This document shows positions 21,749 to 50,945 of a DNA stretch of 64,000 nt, piece by piece. Positions within the stretch are counted from its first letter, which is position 1. Every line of letters starts with the position of its first letter. The stretch is from Acidimicrobiia bacterium (GTDB lineage: Bacteria > Actinomycetota > Acidimicrobiia > Spongiisociales > UBA5794). The stretch is from contig JASJDZ010000004.1 of the NCBI GenBank assembly GCA_030065575.1, positions 1 through 64,000 on the forward strand. Reading direction: 5' to 3'. The position numbers and the translations under genes are program-made. Under the pieces are notes generated by a model that was not told the origin of the DNA, did not search any database, and was given only the letters and a program-made list of their open reading frames with translations.

Positions 21749-21822
21749 GTATGACATTCGACCCTGCCCGCAACCCTTTGACAGTTTGTAAGATTCGACA
21801 ATCGGGTTCTAGGAGGGTTGCT

Positions 21823-22707
21823 TTGGTCATTGCCAAAGAGTTCGACTACCAACGTCCGACGACGCTCGAGGAGGCTACCCAGATCCTTGCGGGCCACCCC
21901 GGCTCGGCTCGGGTGCTCGCCGGTGGAACAGACCTCGTCGCCTGGTTGCGCGACGACGCCGTCGCTCCCGACCTCGTTGTCGACATCAAGGCGATCCCCG
22001 ATCTCCACGACATCAAGATCGATGGCGACACGCTGCATCTCGGATCGCTCGTCACGTTCTCCGATCTGATCAACTCCCCCATTGTCAGCGAGCACGCCCC
22101 GCTGCTCGCTGAGATGGCAGAGACCGTCGCTTCCACGGGCATCCGAAACCGGGCGACGCTGGTCGGCAATATCTGCTCGGCCGTCCCGTCCTGTGATGCC
22201 GGGCCCGTTCTCCTCGGGTACGACACCACCGTCCACATGATCGGGCCCGATGGCACACGCAGCATCGACATCAACGACTGGTTCGTCGGCCTCCGGGAAA
22301 CGGCGTGTGCCGGCGACGAGATCGTCAGCCACCTCACGATGAAGGTGCCAGTCCACGGCGGCGTCTATGTCAAGCTGATGCGCTATGCCGGCGAAGACCT
22401 AGCCCAGGCTGCCGTCGGCATCGTCGCCTATCCCGGGGACGAGTATCGGGTGGCCTTTGGCGCCGTTGCGCCCACCCCGATCCGCTCAACCCGGATCGAG
22501 GACGCACTTCGGAGCAAGCCGCTCGACGAGAAACTCATCGCCGAGGTCGTCGCCATGGTGGCGGACGAGATCAGCCCGATCGACGACATTCGGGCCACTG
22601 CCGCCTACCGCACCCGGATCTGCGAGGTGATGCTGGAACGGGGGCTCCCGGCGGCGAGAGAAAGGCTCGATGGGACTGGGCCGGCATACGGAACGAGGTT
22701 GATCTAA
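21823..22707 (+). CDS. Molybdenum hydroxylase FAD-binding subunit (CoxM/XdhB-like)
   Basis: AGGAGG RBS and TTG start; VLAGGTDLVAWLR; TGIRNRATLVGNICSAVPSCDAGPVLLGYD. Confidence 0.92.
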   Translation: MVIAKEFDYQRPTTLEEATQILAGHPGSARVLAGGTDLVAWLRDDAVAPDLVVDIKAIPDLHDIKIDGDTLHLGSLVTFSDLINSPIVSEHAPLLAEMAETVASTGIRNRATLVGNICSAVPSCDAGPVLLGYDTTVHMIGPDGTRSIDINDWFVGLRETACAGDEIVSHLTMKVPVHGGVYVKLMRYAGEDLAQAAVGIVAYPGDEYRVAFGAVAPTPIRSTRIEDALRSKPLDEKLIAEVVAMVADEISPIDDIRATAAYRTRICEVMLERGLPAARERLDGTGPAYGTRLI

Positions 22708-23168
22708 TGGAGTTCACTGTCAAGGTCAACGGAGAGCGCTGGGACATCGATGCCGCCCCTGCCGACGTGCTGCTGGACGTGCTCCGGGAGAAGATCGGGG
22801 TGAAGAGCCCAAAGATCGGCTGTGAGCGCGGTGACTGTGGCTCCTGCACCATCCTTCTCGACGGCAAAACGGTGCGCAGCTGCCTCGTCCTTGCCGTAGA
22901 AGTCGACGGTCAGGAAATCACCACCGTAGAAGGCATCGGCTACGAAGGGCTCAGCCAGCTGCAAGACCTCTTCATCAGCAACAACGCGTTCCAATGCGGG
23001 TTCTGCGCTCCGGCGATCGTGCTGTCGGCGACAGAGCTACTGGACAGCAACCCCAACCCAACCCGGCACGACGTACAGGAAGCACTGGCCGGGAACCTGT
23101 GTCGGTGCACCGGCTACGAGCCGATCATCGAAGCGGTTCTTGCCGCGGCAGAAGGGGGTGCGAAGTGA
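22707..23168 (+). CDS. Molybdenum hydroxylase (2Fe-2S) subunit (CoxS/XdhC-like)
   Basis: GCERGDCGSCTILLDGKTVRSC and QCGFCAPAIVLSATELL...GNLCRCTGYEPI; ATG overlaps upstream TAA. Confidence 0.95.
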   Translation: MEFTVKVNGERWDIDAAPADVLLDVLREKIGVKSPKIGCERGDCGSCTILLDGKTVRSCLVLAVEVDGQEITTVEGIGYEGLSQLQDLFISNNAFQCGFCAPAIVLSATELLDSNPNPTRHDVQEALAGNLCRCTGYEPIIEAVLAAAEGGAK

Positions 23169-25546
23169 CCACCACATTCCCGTTCGAAGCCGAAACGGAC
23201 AGCGATCAGCTGAAGACAGTTGGCACCGGTGCAGTCCGCATCGACGGTGTCGACAAGATCAGTGGCGCGGCCGAGTTCGTCGACGACATTGACTTCGGCC
23301 CGGGGCTGCTCCACGCCGCCATCGTCGAAAGCCCCCATGCGTACGCCCGCATTGTCTCGATCGACACGACAGAAGCCGAGGAGGCCAAGGGCGTGGTCCG
23401 GGTCGTCACCGGCGAGGACTTCCCGTACAAGTTCGGCATGTACATGGAGGACCGCTACATATTCGCTCAGGATCACGTTCGGTTCGTGGGCGAGCAGGTG
23501 GCTGGGGTCATCGCAAGGTCCCATCGTCAAGCGGTGCAGGCCGCCAAGCTGATCAAGGTCGAGTACGAGGTACTCGAACCACTGCTCGACCCGAAATCGG
23601 CTGTGGCCGAAGACGCCAACCTTATTCATCCGGATCTGGACGACTACGCCCACGTGCCCTGGTTCTTCCCGAAGGCCGACACCAACATCGCCCACTGGCG
23701 CAAGATCCGCAAAGGTGACACCGAGAAGGCGTTTGCCGAGGCCGACTTCGTACTCGAGGACACCTACACGGTGCCTCGCTACGCCCACTGCGCGATCGAG
23801 CCACACGTGACCGTGAGCAGGCTCGACCACGCCGACCGGCTGACCGTGTGGACCGCCTCCCAGTCTCCGCACACGCAGCGCCATCTATTCGCCGAAGCGC
23901 TGGCACCGCTCGGCTTCACCCACAAGGACGTCCGGGTGATTACCCCGTACGTCGGTGGCGGCTTCGGCGGTAAAGCCGGCGTCTCGATGGAAATCCTCGG
24001 CGCGGCGATGGCAACTCTCGTCAAAGGCCGCCCGGTCAAGCTTCGCTTCACCAGGGAGCAGGAGTTCTACAACACGTACCAGCGGCAGGGCGTCGTCGCC
24101 GAACTGAAGGTCGGCGTGATGAACGACGGCACCATCACCGCCGTTGACCACAAGCTCTTCTGGGATGCCGGCGCCTACGTCGAGTACGGCGCCAACGTCG
24201 TCAATGCGGCGGGATTGTCCGCCACCGGCCCGTACCGGGTGCCCAACATCAGCAACGACTCCTTGTGCATCTACACGAACCTCCCGCCGGGTGGGCCCTA
24301 CCGCGGCTTTGGCTACTCAGAGTTCCACTTCGGCCTCGAGTCGCACATGGACCGTATTGCGGAGGCGATCGGCATGGACCCTGTCGATTTCCGCCGCAAG
24401 AACGCCATCCAGGAAGGCGACGAACTGTCGTACGGGGCACATATGAATCCGTCCGGGATGATCGAGGCGATCGACAAGGTCGCCGCGGCAATCGAGTGGG
24501 GCGTGGAAGAGGAAACCGACAACCCGAACACCGTCATGAGCAAAGGCATCGCGTGCTTCTGGAAGGCACCGGCAATGCCGCCCAATGCCTCTTCGGCTTC
24601 CTTCCTCAAGTTCAACGAGGACGGCAGTCTCAATATCACCGTGTCCGGGATGGAATTGGGGCAGGGCTACCTGACGGTGATGGCGCAGATCGCCAGCGAG
24701 ATCCTCACCGTTCCGGTGGAGAAGATCCGGGTCGAGACCCCCGACACCGACCGCAACCCCTACGAGTGGCAGACGGTGGCGTCGCACGTCACGTGGAGCT
24801 CGGGCCTAGCGGTGGAGAAGGCTGCCATCGAGGCGCGGGCCAAGATCTTCGACGTCATCCATCAGGTGTACGGCTTCGAAGATGAGTCGCTGTACCTCGA
24901 GAACGAGGCTGTGCGCTGTTCGACAGACCCCGAGTTCGTCAAACCACTGCGGGACTTTGTCATCGACGGAATCCAAACCGAGGAAGGCACCTGGCGGGGT
25001 GGGCCGATCATCGCCAGCGGCAAGTTCATGCCGGAGTTCACCAACGCCAACAGTGACCCGGAGACCGGCCAGGGCGGCCACCCCAACGTCCACTACACGG
25101 TCGGCTGTACTGGTGTTGTCACTGAGATCGACAGGGATACCGGGCGGGTGTGGGTGCGCAAGGCTGCCCTTGCCGTCGATGCCGGCCGCGCCATCAACCC
25201 GGACCTCGTCAAGGGACAGATCGTCGGCGGCCTGGTTCAGGGATTGGCCACCGTCCTCTACGAAGACATGCGGTTCGACGAGGATGGCAAGCTGCTCAAT
25301 CCGAACTTCACCGACTACAAGATCCCAACCGCGTTCGACATACCGGACGAGGTCGTTCCGATCATCGTTGAAGTACCCCAACCCGACGGCCCGTTTGGGG
25401 CTCGCGGAGTCGGTGAGCACACGATGATCGCCGCGGCACCGGTGATCGCCAACGCCGTCTACAACGCGTTTGGAACCCGGATCAAGTCGATGCCGGTAAC
25501 CCAGGAGAAGATCGCAATGGCTCTACTCGAGAAGGGGAGTGGATAG
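23165..25546 (+). CDS. Molybdenum hydroxylase molybdopterin-binding catalytic subunit (xanthine-dehydrogenase-like)
   Basis: GGGFGGKAG; GGPYRGFGYSEFHFGLESHMDRIA; GARGVGEHTMIAAAPVIANAVYNA active-site Glu region. Confidence 0.94.
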   Translation: MTTTFPFEAETDSDQLKTVGTGAVRIDGVDKISGAAEFVDDIDFGPGLLHAAIVESPHAYARIVSIDTTEAEEAKGVVRVVTGEDFPYKFGMYMEDRYIFAQDHVRFVGEQVAGVIARSHRQAVQAAKLIKVEYEVLEPLLDPKSAVAEDANLIHPDLDDYAHVPWFFPKADTNIAHWRKIRKGDTEKAFAEADFVLEDTYTVPRYAHCAIEPHVTVSRLDHADRLTVWTASQSPHTQRHLFAEALAPLGFTHKDVRVITPYVGGGFGGKAGVSMEILGAAMATLVKGRPVKLRFTREQEFYNTYQRQGVVAELKVGVMNDGTITAVDHKLFWDAGAYVEYGANVVNAAGLSATGPYRVPNISNDSLCIYTNLPPGGPYRGFGYSEFHFGLESHMDRIAEAIGMDPVDFRRKNAIQEGDELSYGAHMNPSGMIEAIDKVAAAIEWGVEEETDNPNTVMSKGIACFWKAPAMPPNASSASFLKFNEDGSLNITVSGMELGQGYLTVMAQIASEILTVPVEKIRVETPDTDRNPYEWQTVASHVTWSSGLAVEKAAIEARAKIFDVIHQVYGFEDESLYLENEAVRCSTDPEFVKPLRDFVIDGIQTEEGTWRGGPIIASGKFMPEFTNANSDPETGQGGHPNVHYTVGCTGVVTEIDRDTGRVWVRKAALAVDAGRAINPDLVKGQIVGGLVQGLATVLYEDMRFDEDGKLLNPNFTDYKIPTAFDIPDEVVPIIVEVPQPDGPFGARGVGEHTMIAAAPVIANAVYNAFGTRIKSMPVTQEKIAMALLEKGSG

Positions 25547-25549
25547 CGA

Positions 25550-26308
25550 ATGTCCGTTGATCTAGAGAAGATCCTACGGCCCATAGATCATGACCTGGCT
25601 CCGTACGAGCCGAAGTACATGATGCTGGCCAGCGGGGAGGCGGTGGTCGTCCGCCAGGTGTTCCGGGATGAGATTCCCGACCTGCTGAAGCACGTCGAGC
25701 CGCTGATCCATGTTGAGCGGGATTTCTACGACGTGGTGGCGGCCCGGGTATATGCCGAGCTGCTGGGCTACTACAAGCATCGGTTCCAGGATCAGTACGT
25801 TTTGGCGCTGCAGGTGGACGGCGAACTGGCGGCAATCGTCAACGGCCGCGAGGTCAAGCCCGGTCTCGGTCTATCTCTTCACACTCTTGCGCTTCGCCGC
25901 GGGCTCCGGATCGGGGCTCACGGATTCGCCGCCAAGATGGAGTACCACATCGACACACTCGGCCACGATGAGGTGCTGATCGTCGCCGAGTCTCCTATCG
26001 GGTTCCGGCGGTGGATGATCGAGTACAAGCTGGAGAAGCGGTTCGATATCCCACACGAGCTGGGTGGTGTGCCCTCCTGGGCATTGACCAGGGAACTGTT
26101 CGACCGGGCTCGCTCCAAGCTGGTCGTCGGCAGACGGCCGGTGCCTCCGGCGCTCTTGGAGAAGGCGATGGAGAAGATCCTGCCTCCATCGGATCCGCCG
26201 ACCCCACCACTCGACCCGCTGGCGGCGACCCGGGCACTGTACGACCCGACCGCCACCGCGTTGGTTCAACAGCGTTGGGAGATGGAGAAGGGGGCCGGCA
26301 ATGCGTGA
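25550..26308 (+). CDS. Conserved-looking protein of unknown function in Mo-hydroxylase/thiolase operon (possible GNAT-like fold)
   Basis: Starts 3 nt after upstream stop and overlaps downstream thiolase gene; no clear family motif. Confidence 0.6.
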   Translation: MSVDLEKILRPIDHDLAPYEPKYMMLASGEAVVVRQVFRDEIPDLLKHVEPLIHVERDFYDVVAARVYAELLGYYKHRFQDQYVLALQVDGELAAIVNGREVKPGLGLSLHTLALRRGLRIGAHGFAAKMEYHIDTLGHDEVLIVAESPIGFRRWMIEYKLEKRFDIPHELGGVPSWALTRELFDRARSKLVVGRRPVPPALLEKAMEKILPPSDPPTPPLDPLAATRALYDPTATALVQQRWEMEKGAGNA

Positions 26309-27476
26309 TGTGTACGTAGCCGGCATCGGGATCACGACCTTCACCCGGCTCGAGTACCCGCTGGTCGAGATTGCCTCCTATGCGTCGATGATGGCACTCA
26401 AGGATGCCGGGATCACCGAGGTCGACCAGGTGTACGTTGCCAACATGGGTGCGGCTCGGCTGAACCACCAGACCGCACTGGCCAGCGCAGTAACCGACAG
26501 CCTCAGCCTGCTGCCGGCCGGAGCGGCGGCTATCGAAAACGGACCGGCCTCTGGCGCCGCAGCGATCAAGGCCGGGTTCCAGGCAGTTGCGTCCGGGATG
26601 GATGATGTGGTGCTGGTGGCCGGAGTGGAGCGGATGCGCGAGGTGAACAACCTCGAAGCCACCGACTTCGTTGCCACACTGACCCACCCGCTAGCCGAGT
26701 ACATCTACGGTGTTACGTTGCCGGCGCTTGCAGCGATGTTCGCCAGGCTGTACATGGACAAGTACGGCGTCACCGAGCGGCACCTGGCCATGGTTGGGGT
26801 CAAGAACCAGAACGCAGCCCTCAACAACGAGTGGGCTCATCTGCAGCAGGCAATCACTCTTGAGGGCATCCTCGACTCGCCAGAAGCGATGACCAACAAC
26901 CCGTACGTCGCCGATCCGTTGCGATTCTTCGATGCTTGCCCGGTGTCCGACGGCGGCGCCGCCATCATCCTCGTGTCCAAGGAGAAGGCACAGGAGCTGG
27001 GACGCCCGATGATCCGGCTCAGTGGGATCGGGCAGGCTACCGATACCCATGCGGTGTTCGAGCGTGAGGAGCCGACGGATCTGCTGGCCGTGCGCAAAGC
27101 AGCGCACGACGCCTATCAGATGTCCGGCCTCAGCCCCGAGGAGATCGACGTGGCAGAGCTCCACGACGCTTTCACGATTCTGGAGATCGCACAGAGTGAG
27201 GAAGTTGGGTTCTTCCCTAAGGGTGAAGGCCACATCGCCCTCGAGAAGGGCGAAACCGCACTAGGCGGCAAGATCCCGATCAACGTCGGAGGCGGCTTGA
27301 AGGGCCGCGGCCACCCGGTCGGAGCAACCGGCGTCGCCCAAGCCTGGGAGATCGTCACCCAGCTGCGCGGGGACGGCGGGAAACGCCAGGTGGAGGGAGC
27401 CCGGACCGGCCTCACCCTCAACTTCGGCGGCTTCGGCAACAACGTTGTCTGTCTCACCTTTGTGAGGGAGGACTAA
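26301..27476 (+). CDS. Thiolase-fold (SCP2-type) protein lacking canonical nucleophilic Cys
   Basis: VAELHDAFT, DACPVSDGGAAI, GHPVGATGVAQ motifs present; nucleophile region reads AIENGPASGAAAIKAG. Confidence 0.88.
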   Translation: MRDVYVAGIGITTFTRLEYPLVEIASYASMMALKDAGITEVDQVYVANMGAARLNHQTALASAVTDSLSLLPAGAAAIENGPASGAAAIKAGFQAVASGMDDVVLVAGVERMREVNNLEATDFVATLTHPLAEYIYGVTLPALAAMFARLYMDKYGVTERHLAMVGVKNQNAALNNEWAHLQQAITLEGILDSPEAMTNNPYVADPLRFFDACPVSDGGAAIILVSKEKAQELGRPMIRLSGIGQATDTHAVFEREEPTDLLAVRKAAHDAYQMSGLSPEEIDVAELHDAFTILEIAQSEEVGFFPKGEGHIALEKGETALGGKIPINVGGGLKGRGHPVGATGVAQAWEIVTQLRGDGGKRQVEGARTGLTLNFGGFGNNVVCLTFVRED

Positions 27477-27823
27477 TGGCACGCGAGATCTACGCATACA
27501 AGTCCCGCGTCGATGGGACCCTGCATTACCCGATGAAGATGATCAGCAGGGGCAACAGGGACCACGACTTCTTCGAGTTCGACCCCGTGCCGCTACCCAA
27601 GACGGGCAAATTGCTGACCTTCACCACGGTCTACAACCTGCCCGCCCAGTATGAGGTAGCTACTCTTGGCCTCGGCATCGTCGAGCTAGAGAACGGGATG
27701 CGGATGCTGGGACAGATCGAGATCGATGACCCCCAGATCGGCATGGCCGTCAAAGGCACCGTCAAGGTGGTCCGCAGAGAGACCTACGACGACTACTACG
27801 GGATGGTGTTCACCGCCGCATGA
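27476..27823 (+). CDS. DUF35 OB-fold protein lacking the N-terminal zinc ribbon
   Basis: GKLLTFTTVYNLPAQYE...LGIVELENGMRMLGQIE typical of DUF35 OB domain; no Cys residues; overlaps thiolase stop. Confidence 0.82.
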   Translation: MAREIYAYKSRVDGTLHYPMKMISRGNRDHDFFEFDPVPLPKTGKLLTFTTVYNLPAQYEVATLGLGIVELENGMRMLGQIEIDDPQIGMAVKGTVKVVRRETYDDYYGMVFTAA

Positions 27824-27978
27824 GGCAAGGACAGGCCATAGGCAGGCAACCGGCAAGGGTCGCGAGACGGGGTGGGACCGAGGGTTCCTCCCATGGGTGG
27901 AATCCCCCCTTTCTCCAAGTGGGCCGGCCTTGGCAGTCAATCAACAGTTGGGTCGTTGACTCAACGAGTGAAAGCAAG

Positions 27979-28008
27979 GAGCCACTCCCCATGGAGTGGC
28001 TCTCTTTC
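27979..28008 (+). terminator. Hairpin terminator / putative attenuator immediately upstream of permease
   Basis: GAGCCACTCC ccat GGAGTGGCTC followed by tctttct, ending ~20 nt before ATG 28030. Confidence 0.8.
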
Positions 28009-28029
28009 TATGTGGGAGAGGAAGGGTAA

Positions 28030-29274
28030 ATGGAGCTAACCATGCAGAAGAAGGTCGTCCTCGGCCTTCAACATACGATCGCCATGTTTGGCGCTACGGT
28101 TCTCGTACCGCTGATCACTGGGCTGAATCCGTCGGTTGCGCTGGTCGCAGCAGGCGTTGGAACACTTCTGTTCCACCTGGTCACGAAACAAATGGTCCCG
28201 GTATTCCTGGGATCATCGTTTGCGTTCATCCCACCAATCCTGATTGGTGTCGAGCGCGGCTATTCCTGGGCGGGTATCGGTGCCGGCATTGTCGGCGCGG
28301 CGGTGATCTACATTGCGATGTCGATCCTCGTCACCTTTGTGGGCAGCGACATCATCCGGCGGGTGTTCCCGCCGATTGTGACGGGCCCGGTCATCACGGT
28401 GATCGGTATCACCTTGGCCCCAGTCGCCATCAGCCAAGCAGAGGGTGCTTGGTGGCTCGCCATCGTGACGTTGGGGGCAACGATCATCGCAGCGATCTTC
28501 TTCCGGGGTCTGTTCCAGATGCTCCCCATCCTGACGGGCGCACTAGTGGGCTACGCCGCGGGCATCCTGTTCTACTCGGACTTCACCTTCGATCCAGTCC
28601 GGGAAGCGAGTTGGCTCGGCTGGCCCGAGTTCACCTGGGGCCTCGGCGACCTCAGTTGGGCGCCGATTGCGCTGATCGCACCAATTGCGTTCGTGACGAT
28701 GATCGAGCACGTCGGTGACATCCTGGCCAACGGTCGGGTTGTGGGACGGGACTTCTTCAAGGAGCCCGGCCTGAACCGGACGCTGCTCGGTGACGGTATC
28801 GCAACGTTGTTTGCCGGCCTCGTCGGTGGTCCACCGAACACCACGTACTCGGAGAACACGGGAGTGCTGGCCGTCACGAAGGTGTACGACCCGTTCATCA
28901 TCCGGATCGGAGCGGTCTTCGCCATCTTCCTGGGTCTCATCCCGAAGCTGGCTGCGGTCCTGCGCACCGTGCCGGTGCCGGTGCTCGGCGGTCTGTCGGT
29001 CGTGCTGTTCGGCATGATCGCATCCGTCGGCCTGCGCACACTGGTCGAAGGACAGGTCGACTTCAAGAAGGGTCGCAACATGATCGTTGTCGGCCTCATC
29101 CTGGTCTTCGGCCTTGGTGTGAGCGGGCTTTCTTCGCCGCTTGCCATCGGTGATGTGGAGATCTCCGGTCTGGCTCTCGCCGCCGTCATCGGCGTCGTCG
29201 CCAACCTGATCCTCCCGATGGATACCGAAGAGGTCGAAGTCGCAATGCCTACGGAGAAGATGTCCAGCGAATAG
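28030..29274 (+). CDS. Uracil-xanthine permease family (NCS2/SLC23)
   Basis: GLQHTIAMFGATVLVPLITGLNPSVAL; PNTTYSENTGVLAVTKVYDP. Confidence 0.94.
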   Translation: MELTMQKKVVLGLQHTIAMFGATVLVPLITGLNPSVALVAAGVGTLLFHLVTKQMVPVFLGSSFAFIPPILIGVERGYSWAGIGAGIVGAAVIYIAMSILVTFVGSDIIRRVFPPIVTGPVITVIGITLAPVAISQAEGAWWLAIVTLGATIIAAIFFRGLFQMLPILTGALVGYAAGILFYSDFTFDPVREASWLGWPEFTWGLGDLSWAPIALIAPIAFVTMIEHVGDILANGRVVGRDFFKEPGLNRTLLGDGIATLFAGLVGGPPNTTYSENTGVLAVTKVYDPFIIRIGAVFAIFLGLIPKLAAVLRTVPVPVLGGLSVVLFGMIASVGLRTLVEGQVDFKKGRNMIVVGLILVFGLGVSGLSSPLAIGDVEISGLALAAVIGVVANLILPMDTEEVEVAMPTEKMSSE

Positions 29275-50766: not shown

Positions 50767-50945
50767 ATGAAGGTGCGGGGTCGGCCCGTGCCAACGACGT
50801 CTACCTTCATCCGAGGTTCGATCGTCACCTCAACGACAGGCGGCCTGGCTTACCCCGAGGGGATCACAGTTGCGGGACAGCACCGGACTCTCACCGGATT
50901 TCGCTGCTGAAGAAGCTTCGTTCTATGTCCGGGGGAATCTAGCAG
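50765..50945 (-). promoter_or_regulatory. Cobalamin (AdoCbl-type) riboswitch upstream of btuFCD
   Basis: Minus strand reads gaaatccggtgagagtccggtgctgtcccgcaactgtgatcccctcggggtaagccaggccgcc, matching the conserved cobalamin riboswitch core. Confidence 0.92.

Follow-up and report, generated by a model that had tools for sequence, protein, structure and literature searches.

A conserved, terminator-bearing leader before a uracil permease gene of Acidimicrobiia as a candidate translation-coupled attenuator

How RNA polymerase gains access to a uracil permease gene whose start codon lies just beyond a terminator-like hairpin is the question raised by this locus from an Acidimicrobiia bacterium (contig JASJDZ010000004.1). 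The window, meaning the whole stretch of DNA that was analysed, is 64,000 nucleotides long, and the elements considered here all lie on its forward strand:

27476..27823, + strand: gene for an OB-fold (ChsH2_C-like) protein, 115 aa (PF01796, E 2.8e-10; same neighbours in 14 relatives)
27820..28029, + strand: candidate leader ORF, 69 codons (ATG overlapping the OB stop; comparative stop depletion; conserved GCA-TGA end of the OB gene)
27915..27933, + strand: hairpin in place of helix 1, CCAAG...CTTGG (sequence inspection)
27947..27965, + strand: helix 2, GTTGGGTC GTT GACTCAAC (covaries in relatives)
27978..28011, + strand: terminator-like hairpin (helix 3) with interrupted U-tract (sequence, covariation, fold energy)
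28014..28025, + strand: Shine-Dalgarno region of the permease, GGGAGAGGAAGG (sequence; conserved in leader alignment A1)
28030..29274, + strand: UraA-like uracil permease (NCS2), 414 aa (PDB 8omz/3qe7; TIGR00801)

The strong hairpin with a T-rich tail that an earlier note placed before the permease ATG is indeed present, as GAGCCACTCC-CCAT-GGAGTGGCTC at 27979-28002, followed by TCTTTCT. It has 11 pairs when 27978-28003 is counted (-20.1 kcal/mol) and lies 154 nt past the OB stop, with 27 nt between its end and the permease ATG (28030); its U-tract is broken up, with 5 T in 8. The same note held that no promoter separates hairpin and permease, and a scan of 27400-28100 likewise found no sigma-70-like promoter. 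Across 707 kb of the window's genome, a rough scan based on a crude gene model finds comparable hairpins 10-45 nt 5' of a start for about 3 of 594 gene models; matches lying about 7 nt or less from a start were discounted, such starts being taken as spurious. Taken as a whole, the leader has no exceptional fold energy (z -1.65).

Key evidence comes from relatives. Of 395 genomes of the class, 29 have an ortholog of the permease, and these all belong to a single order of Acidimicrobiia; 14 of them keep the thiolase and OB-fold genes found upstream in the window, together with the gene for a 252-aa protein of no known family wherever the locus is long enough; in the window, genes for XDH-like subunits lie upstream of these three. 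Thirteen of the 14 have a leader of 193-226 nt with the hairpin, the exception being G041, in which 50 nt without a hairpin precede the permease. Across four families of the order, all 22 hairpin-bearing leaders place the end of the hairpin 22-30 nt before the permease start (counted in G027 from the first in-frame ATG). Alignment of the leaders of orthologous permeases, a check proposed earlier, revealed three consecutive covarying helices, of which the terminator is the third, and the covariation is beyond chance: 35 cells are changed on both sides, versus 13.5±3.2 when shuffled and at most 12 in controls with slid partners. Double changes fall at 15 pairs across the leader helices, and 96.8% of the cells of the terminator helix are paired. 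Because both position and stem are kept, with compensatory changes, the window hairpin is more than a chance occurrence. The U-tracts are weak in the window's family, with 2 T of 8 in several g12 species and in G116, so termination there may be inefficient. Two other roles for the upstream helices were considered and set aside: helix 1 as a -35/-10 promoter was ruled out by its covariation as a stem, and an antiterminator pairing of helix 2 with the 5' arm of the terminator is possible in some species and is not conserved.

A covariance model of the leader (R1), searched against 138 genomes, matches its 13 source leaders and one further genome, G030, at 77-123 bits (G030, 87 bits). In G030 the element again lies 3' of the OB gene, but it precedes a BMP-type (PnrA-like) ABC transporter operon (L161 421-5546), which includes a cytosine-deaminase-like gene (Pfam dCMP_cyt_deam_1) whose product presumably resembles yeast Fcy1. 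Other matches scored 18-35 bits; those inspected were mostly tRNA-like sequences or ordinary terminators, and only that in G030 is the same element.

What might such a leader sense? The earlier label of the permease as uracil/xanthine keeps its first half and is narrowed to uracil-type, since the best solved relatives are the uracil permeases 8omz and 3qe7 (E 2e-79 to 4e-78), the score is above the TIGR00801 cut-off, and the best NCBIfam equivalog is the uracil permease PRK10720, although below its cut-off, with xanthine permease lower. Given a UraA-like permease, a purine riboswitch is unlikely. The Rfam search that the earlier note had called for gave no credible match in the leader at gathering or loose thresholds, the purine, xanthine and PRPP families included; Rfam also misses the PyrR-like loops seen in pyrR leaders. 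The sole Rfam match in the window is a cobalamin riboswitch at 50844-50898 on the minus strand (33.1 bits against a gathering threshold of 31.5). That a PyrR loop is missing, as previously claimed, was confirmed for the window and its genus by motif search. More broadly, the PyrR loop core CCNGNGAGG is absent from the permease leaders of families f1, f3, f4 and f8 except for one motif match, at -214 in G116, while pyrR leaders and the permease leaders of f2 do contain it. No PyrR match over the cut-off was found in G027, G029, G063 and G058 (92-97% complete), all of which keep a terminator leader before the permease.

These observations bear on the idea that an aptamer or protein-binding site made up of helices 1 and 2 decides whether the terminator forms. 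The covariation of both helices would fit such a ligand- or protein-sensing attenuator, as would the retention of the leader in G030 after replacement of the permease by a nucleoside-type BMP ABC transporter and a cytosine-deaminase-like gene. It is nevertheless judged unlikely: no Rfam family is matched, the loops of helix 1 vary among relatives and the window's own helix-1 hairpin deviates from their covarying helix, a conserved antiterminator pairing is not seen, the clade has no PyrR loop near the start and the four genomes just named have no PyrR match over the cut-off, and the leaders of other families do without helices 1 and 2. The purine or pyrimidine riboswitch suggested earlier is not supported either: Rfam gives no match, the helix-1 loops vary, the leader frame is kept open for translation, and the roughly 40 nt between promoter-like box and terminator in the other families are too short for an aptamer.

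That open frame points to the ribosome instead. The approximately 150 nt before the hairpin had been described as non-coding, which is now doubtful. In the window, an ORF starts at an ATG overlapping the OB stop (ATGA, 27820-27823), remains open across the hairpin and ends with a TAA abutting the permease ATG (TAA-ATG, 28027-28030). By itself this ORF would carry no significance, as a GC-rich genome such as this one has many long open frames (in one genome, 32% of gene ends are followed by open frames of at least 60 codons, using a crude gene model). The comparison among relatives is more telling. Of the 13 leaders, 12 have an ATG overlapping the OB stop, and one ORF from it, or two in relay, extends across the hairpin and finishes close to the permease start or on it; a second ATGA serves as relay in G025, G026 and G028 and also in G030, and in G116 a different start with a strong ribosome site serves the leader ORF. 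The frame common to the leaders, from which that of the window differs because of an indel, contains 3 stops in 13 leaders, versus 24 and 28 in the other two frames and 20.7±4.3 in shuffles. Neutral evolution simulated along the leader tree, starting from a root free of stops and with substitutions and no indels, predicts 20.6±6 stops, with P(<=3) below 1/2000 and P(at least 10 of 13 leaders fully open) of 0.0005, values to be multiplied by about three because the frame was chosen after the data had been seen. The ATGA overlap results from a terminal Ala codon GCA in the OB gene, which is used in 12 of 12 ATGA leaders against a background of 19% of Ala codons; in leaderless G041 this codon is GCC.

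The leader is thus probably translated, to judge from these patterns. A conserved small protein was rejected, amino-acid conservation in the leader frame being weak (about 0.16 per codon pair, where the start of the permease scores 3.4; z is 2.6 for the full leader and 1.5 for its final 100 nt), as was a separate upstream ORF beginning at ATGGGYAAG after helix 2, whose ATG becomes ACG, ATA or ATC in several relatives. Since the frame is kept open while the peptide is hardly conserved, selection is suggested to act on uninterrupted translation itself and not on the peptide product.

A similar layout recurs in permease leaders of other families. Those of f3, f4 and f8 have a -10-like box (read by eye), an ATG 7-9 nt downstream and an ORF that ends just before the terminator or crosses it. 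In f3, the ATG lies 9 nt after the family's own -10-like box and opens an 8-codon ORF (MGTTTCIG in most) whose stop falls 2-3 nt short of a classical terminator, except in G058, where the ORF has lost this stop and continues across the terminator. In f8 (G101, G063) a 29-codon ORF that starts 7 nt past TAGGTT spans the terminator and stops 7 nt beyond the start of the permease match, and in f4 a 22-codon ORF crosses the terminator in G072, while that of G052 ends before it. Among the candidates of the earlier note, the conditional terminator therefore gains support from conservation, covariation and promoter-like sequence just upstream in relatives, whereas the nucleobase riboswitch does not.

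The same leaders help to weigh two further readings of the hairpin. It might simply be the 3' terminator of the XDH-like/OB operon, the permease being expressed by leaky readthrough or from an unrecognised promoter. The clade's leader does stay behind the OB gene even where, as in G030, the downstream gene differs, and terminators squeezed before starts occur elsewhere. Yet the hairpin lies 154 nt beyond the OB stop, f3, f4 and f8 permeases that lack the OB operon are preceded by a terminator at an equal distance, f3 has an additional terminator-like hairpin farther upstream, and the open, ATGA-anchored frame is left unexplained; this reading is considered about as improbable as ligand sensing, or slightly more so. 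Alternatively, the hairpin might be no terminator at all, serving RNA stability, processing or insulation of the ribosome site in an operon leader. The g12 species and G116, in which the stem is well kept despite poor U-tracts, and the constant spacing to the Shine-Dalgarno region are compatible with such a stem-loop, and, given those U-tracts, some members of the clade might use the hairpin for something else. As an account of the leader in general this is quite improbable, for classical U-tracts occupy the same place in other families (TTTTTTTG in G072, T runs in f3).

The reading preferred here, with slightly better than even confidence, is that the leader is a translation-coupled transcription attenuator of the pyrBI/pyrE kind, new in these bacteria, in which ribosomes probably decide whether the uracil importer is made. 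It builds on the conserved position of the hairpin, the covariation, the open and anchored leader frame and the layout shared by independent leaders. For RNA polymerase coming from the OB gene, or in other families from a promoter just upstream, the way to the permease would lead across the hairpin. Having finished the OB gene, ribosomes would start again at ATGA and translate the leader ORF, traversing the hairpin as they go. If a ribosome followed the polymerase closely, it would mask the 5' arm, so that the hairpin could not form and the permease would be transcribed and then translated; if ribosomes lagged, or if leader translation were blocked, the hairpin would form and transcription would stop in vivo. 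Hairpins 1 and 2 may act by pausing the polymerase or slowing the ribosome. The signal would most naturally be the level of pyrimidine nucleotides, sensed through polymerase speed as in pyrBI and pyrE.

An intrinsic terminator, as judged from its sequence and with a weak U-tract in part of the clade, does precede the structural gene, and the leader ORF runs through it or to its edge, both as in attenuators of the pyrBI type. The chief doubt about the attenuator comes from the weak U-tracts of some relatives. Also against it, constant coupling from the OB gene would hold the terminator off, and the ORF ends just short of the hairpin in one f4 leader and most of those of f3. Inspection of f1 leaders revealed no evident U-rich pause site like that of pyrBI, the leader being 14.5% T.

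The proposed device resembles pyrimidine switches of Escherichia coli more than it does a metabolite-sensing riboswitch. In the rph-pyrE attenuator, a terminator just before a pyrimidine gene receives ribosomes from the preceding gene of the operon, much as the OB gene would supply them before the permease, except that here the gap is spanned by an additional coupled leader ORF, about 70 codons long. In E. coli, termination is suppressed by ribosomes that are close to a terminator or on top of it, also at terminators inside ORFs, including that of pyrBI, which sits inside the leader-peptide gene (PMC4824070). The present leader shares with the UTP-sensitive pyrBI attenuator a terminator within a candidate leader ORF before a pyrimidine gene, where ribosome proximity would prevent termination (PMC4824070), but it precedes a uracil permease in Acidimicrobiia, its ORF is ATGA-coupled to the upstream gene and it has no evident U-rich pause tract. 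Among actinobacteria, attenuators with upstream ORFs include ilvB1 of Mycobacterium tuberculosis (PMC13236596) and the polycysteine leaderless ORFs cited in that source. A short ORF upstream of a terminator and the leaderless-type starts of the f3, f4 and f8 leaders are common ground with these; unlike them, the leaders described here have no run of regulatory codons, and the ribosome is proposed to antiterminate directly without a competing antiterminator. A literature search of open-licence papers found no published description of the leader.

The order also employs PyrR. In f2, uracil permease leaders (L053, L062, L064, L065) have a PyrR-like core, CCAGAGAGG or CCGGAGAGG, 17 nt before the start, overlapping the Shine-Dalgarno sequence. 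Loops of the GGUCCNGUGAGGCC type occur in the pyrR leaders of the order, next to a short ORF whose stop usually falls on the pyrR start. In four of these leaders, from families f3 and f4 (G051, G065, G052 and G072; L208, L209, L210 and L211, respectively), a terminator-like hairpin is nested in the ORF behind the loop, a short distance before pyrR. Mycobacterial PyrR control was reportedly described by Fields and Switzer in 2007 as translational repression at the first ribosome-binding site. The pyrR leaders of the order conform to this in placing a PyrR loop next to a short pyrR-coupled ORF, and differ in that some add a nested terminator; the permease leaders of the window's clade differ in having no loop near the start. 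These four pyrR leaders are possibly hybrids of PyrR translational repression and attenuation, in which PyrR would block translation of the leader ORF and the nested terminator would then form. It can tentatively be proposed, at somewhat less than even confidence, that terminators nested in coupled leader ORFs are the order's standard pyrimidine switch, PyrR-gated before pyrR and PyrR-independent before uracil and nucleoside transporters.

If these proposals are correct, termination gated by ribosomes, for which the pyr genes of proteobacteria are the best-known case, either arose in or has persisted within a deep actinobacterial lineage that is mostly uncultured. There the ribosome would come from an upstream gene coupled through ATGA, and in pyrR leaders PyrR would act as the gate. 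Two textbook pyrimidine controls, PyrR and pyrBI-type coupling, would then be joined in one device. The locus also warns that terminator-bearing leaders taken to be non-coding can be under selection for translation without a conserved peptide.

The upstream genes deserve mention in their own right. From 21751 to 27823 the window contains, in conserved order, three genes for XDH-like subunits, the gene for the 252-aa protein, a thiolase-like gene and the OB-fold gene, which is the final gene of the cluster before the leader. Placed as it is before a uracil permease gene, this cluster possibly encodes a pathway for a nucleobase-like substrate.
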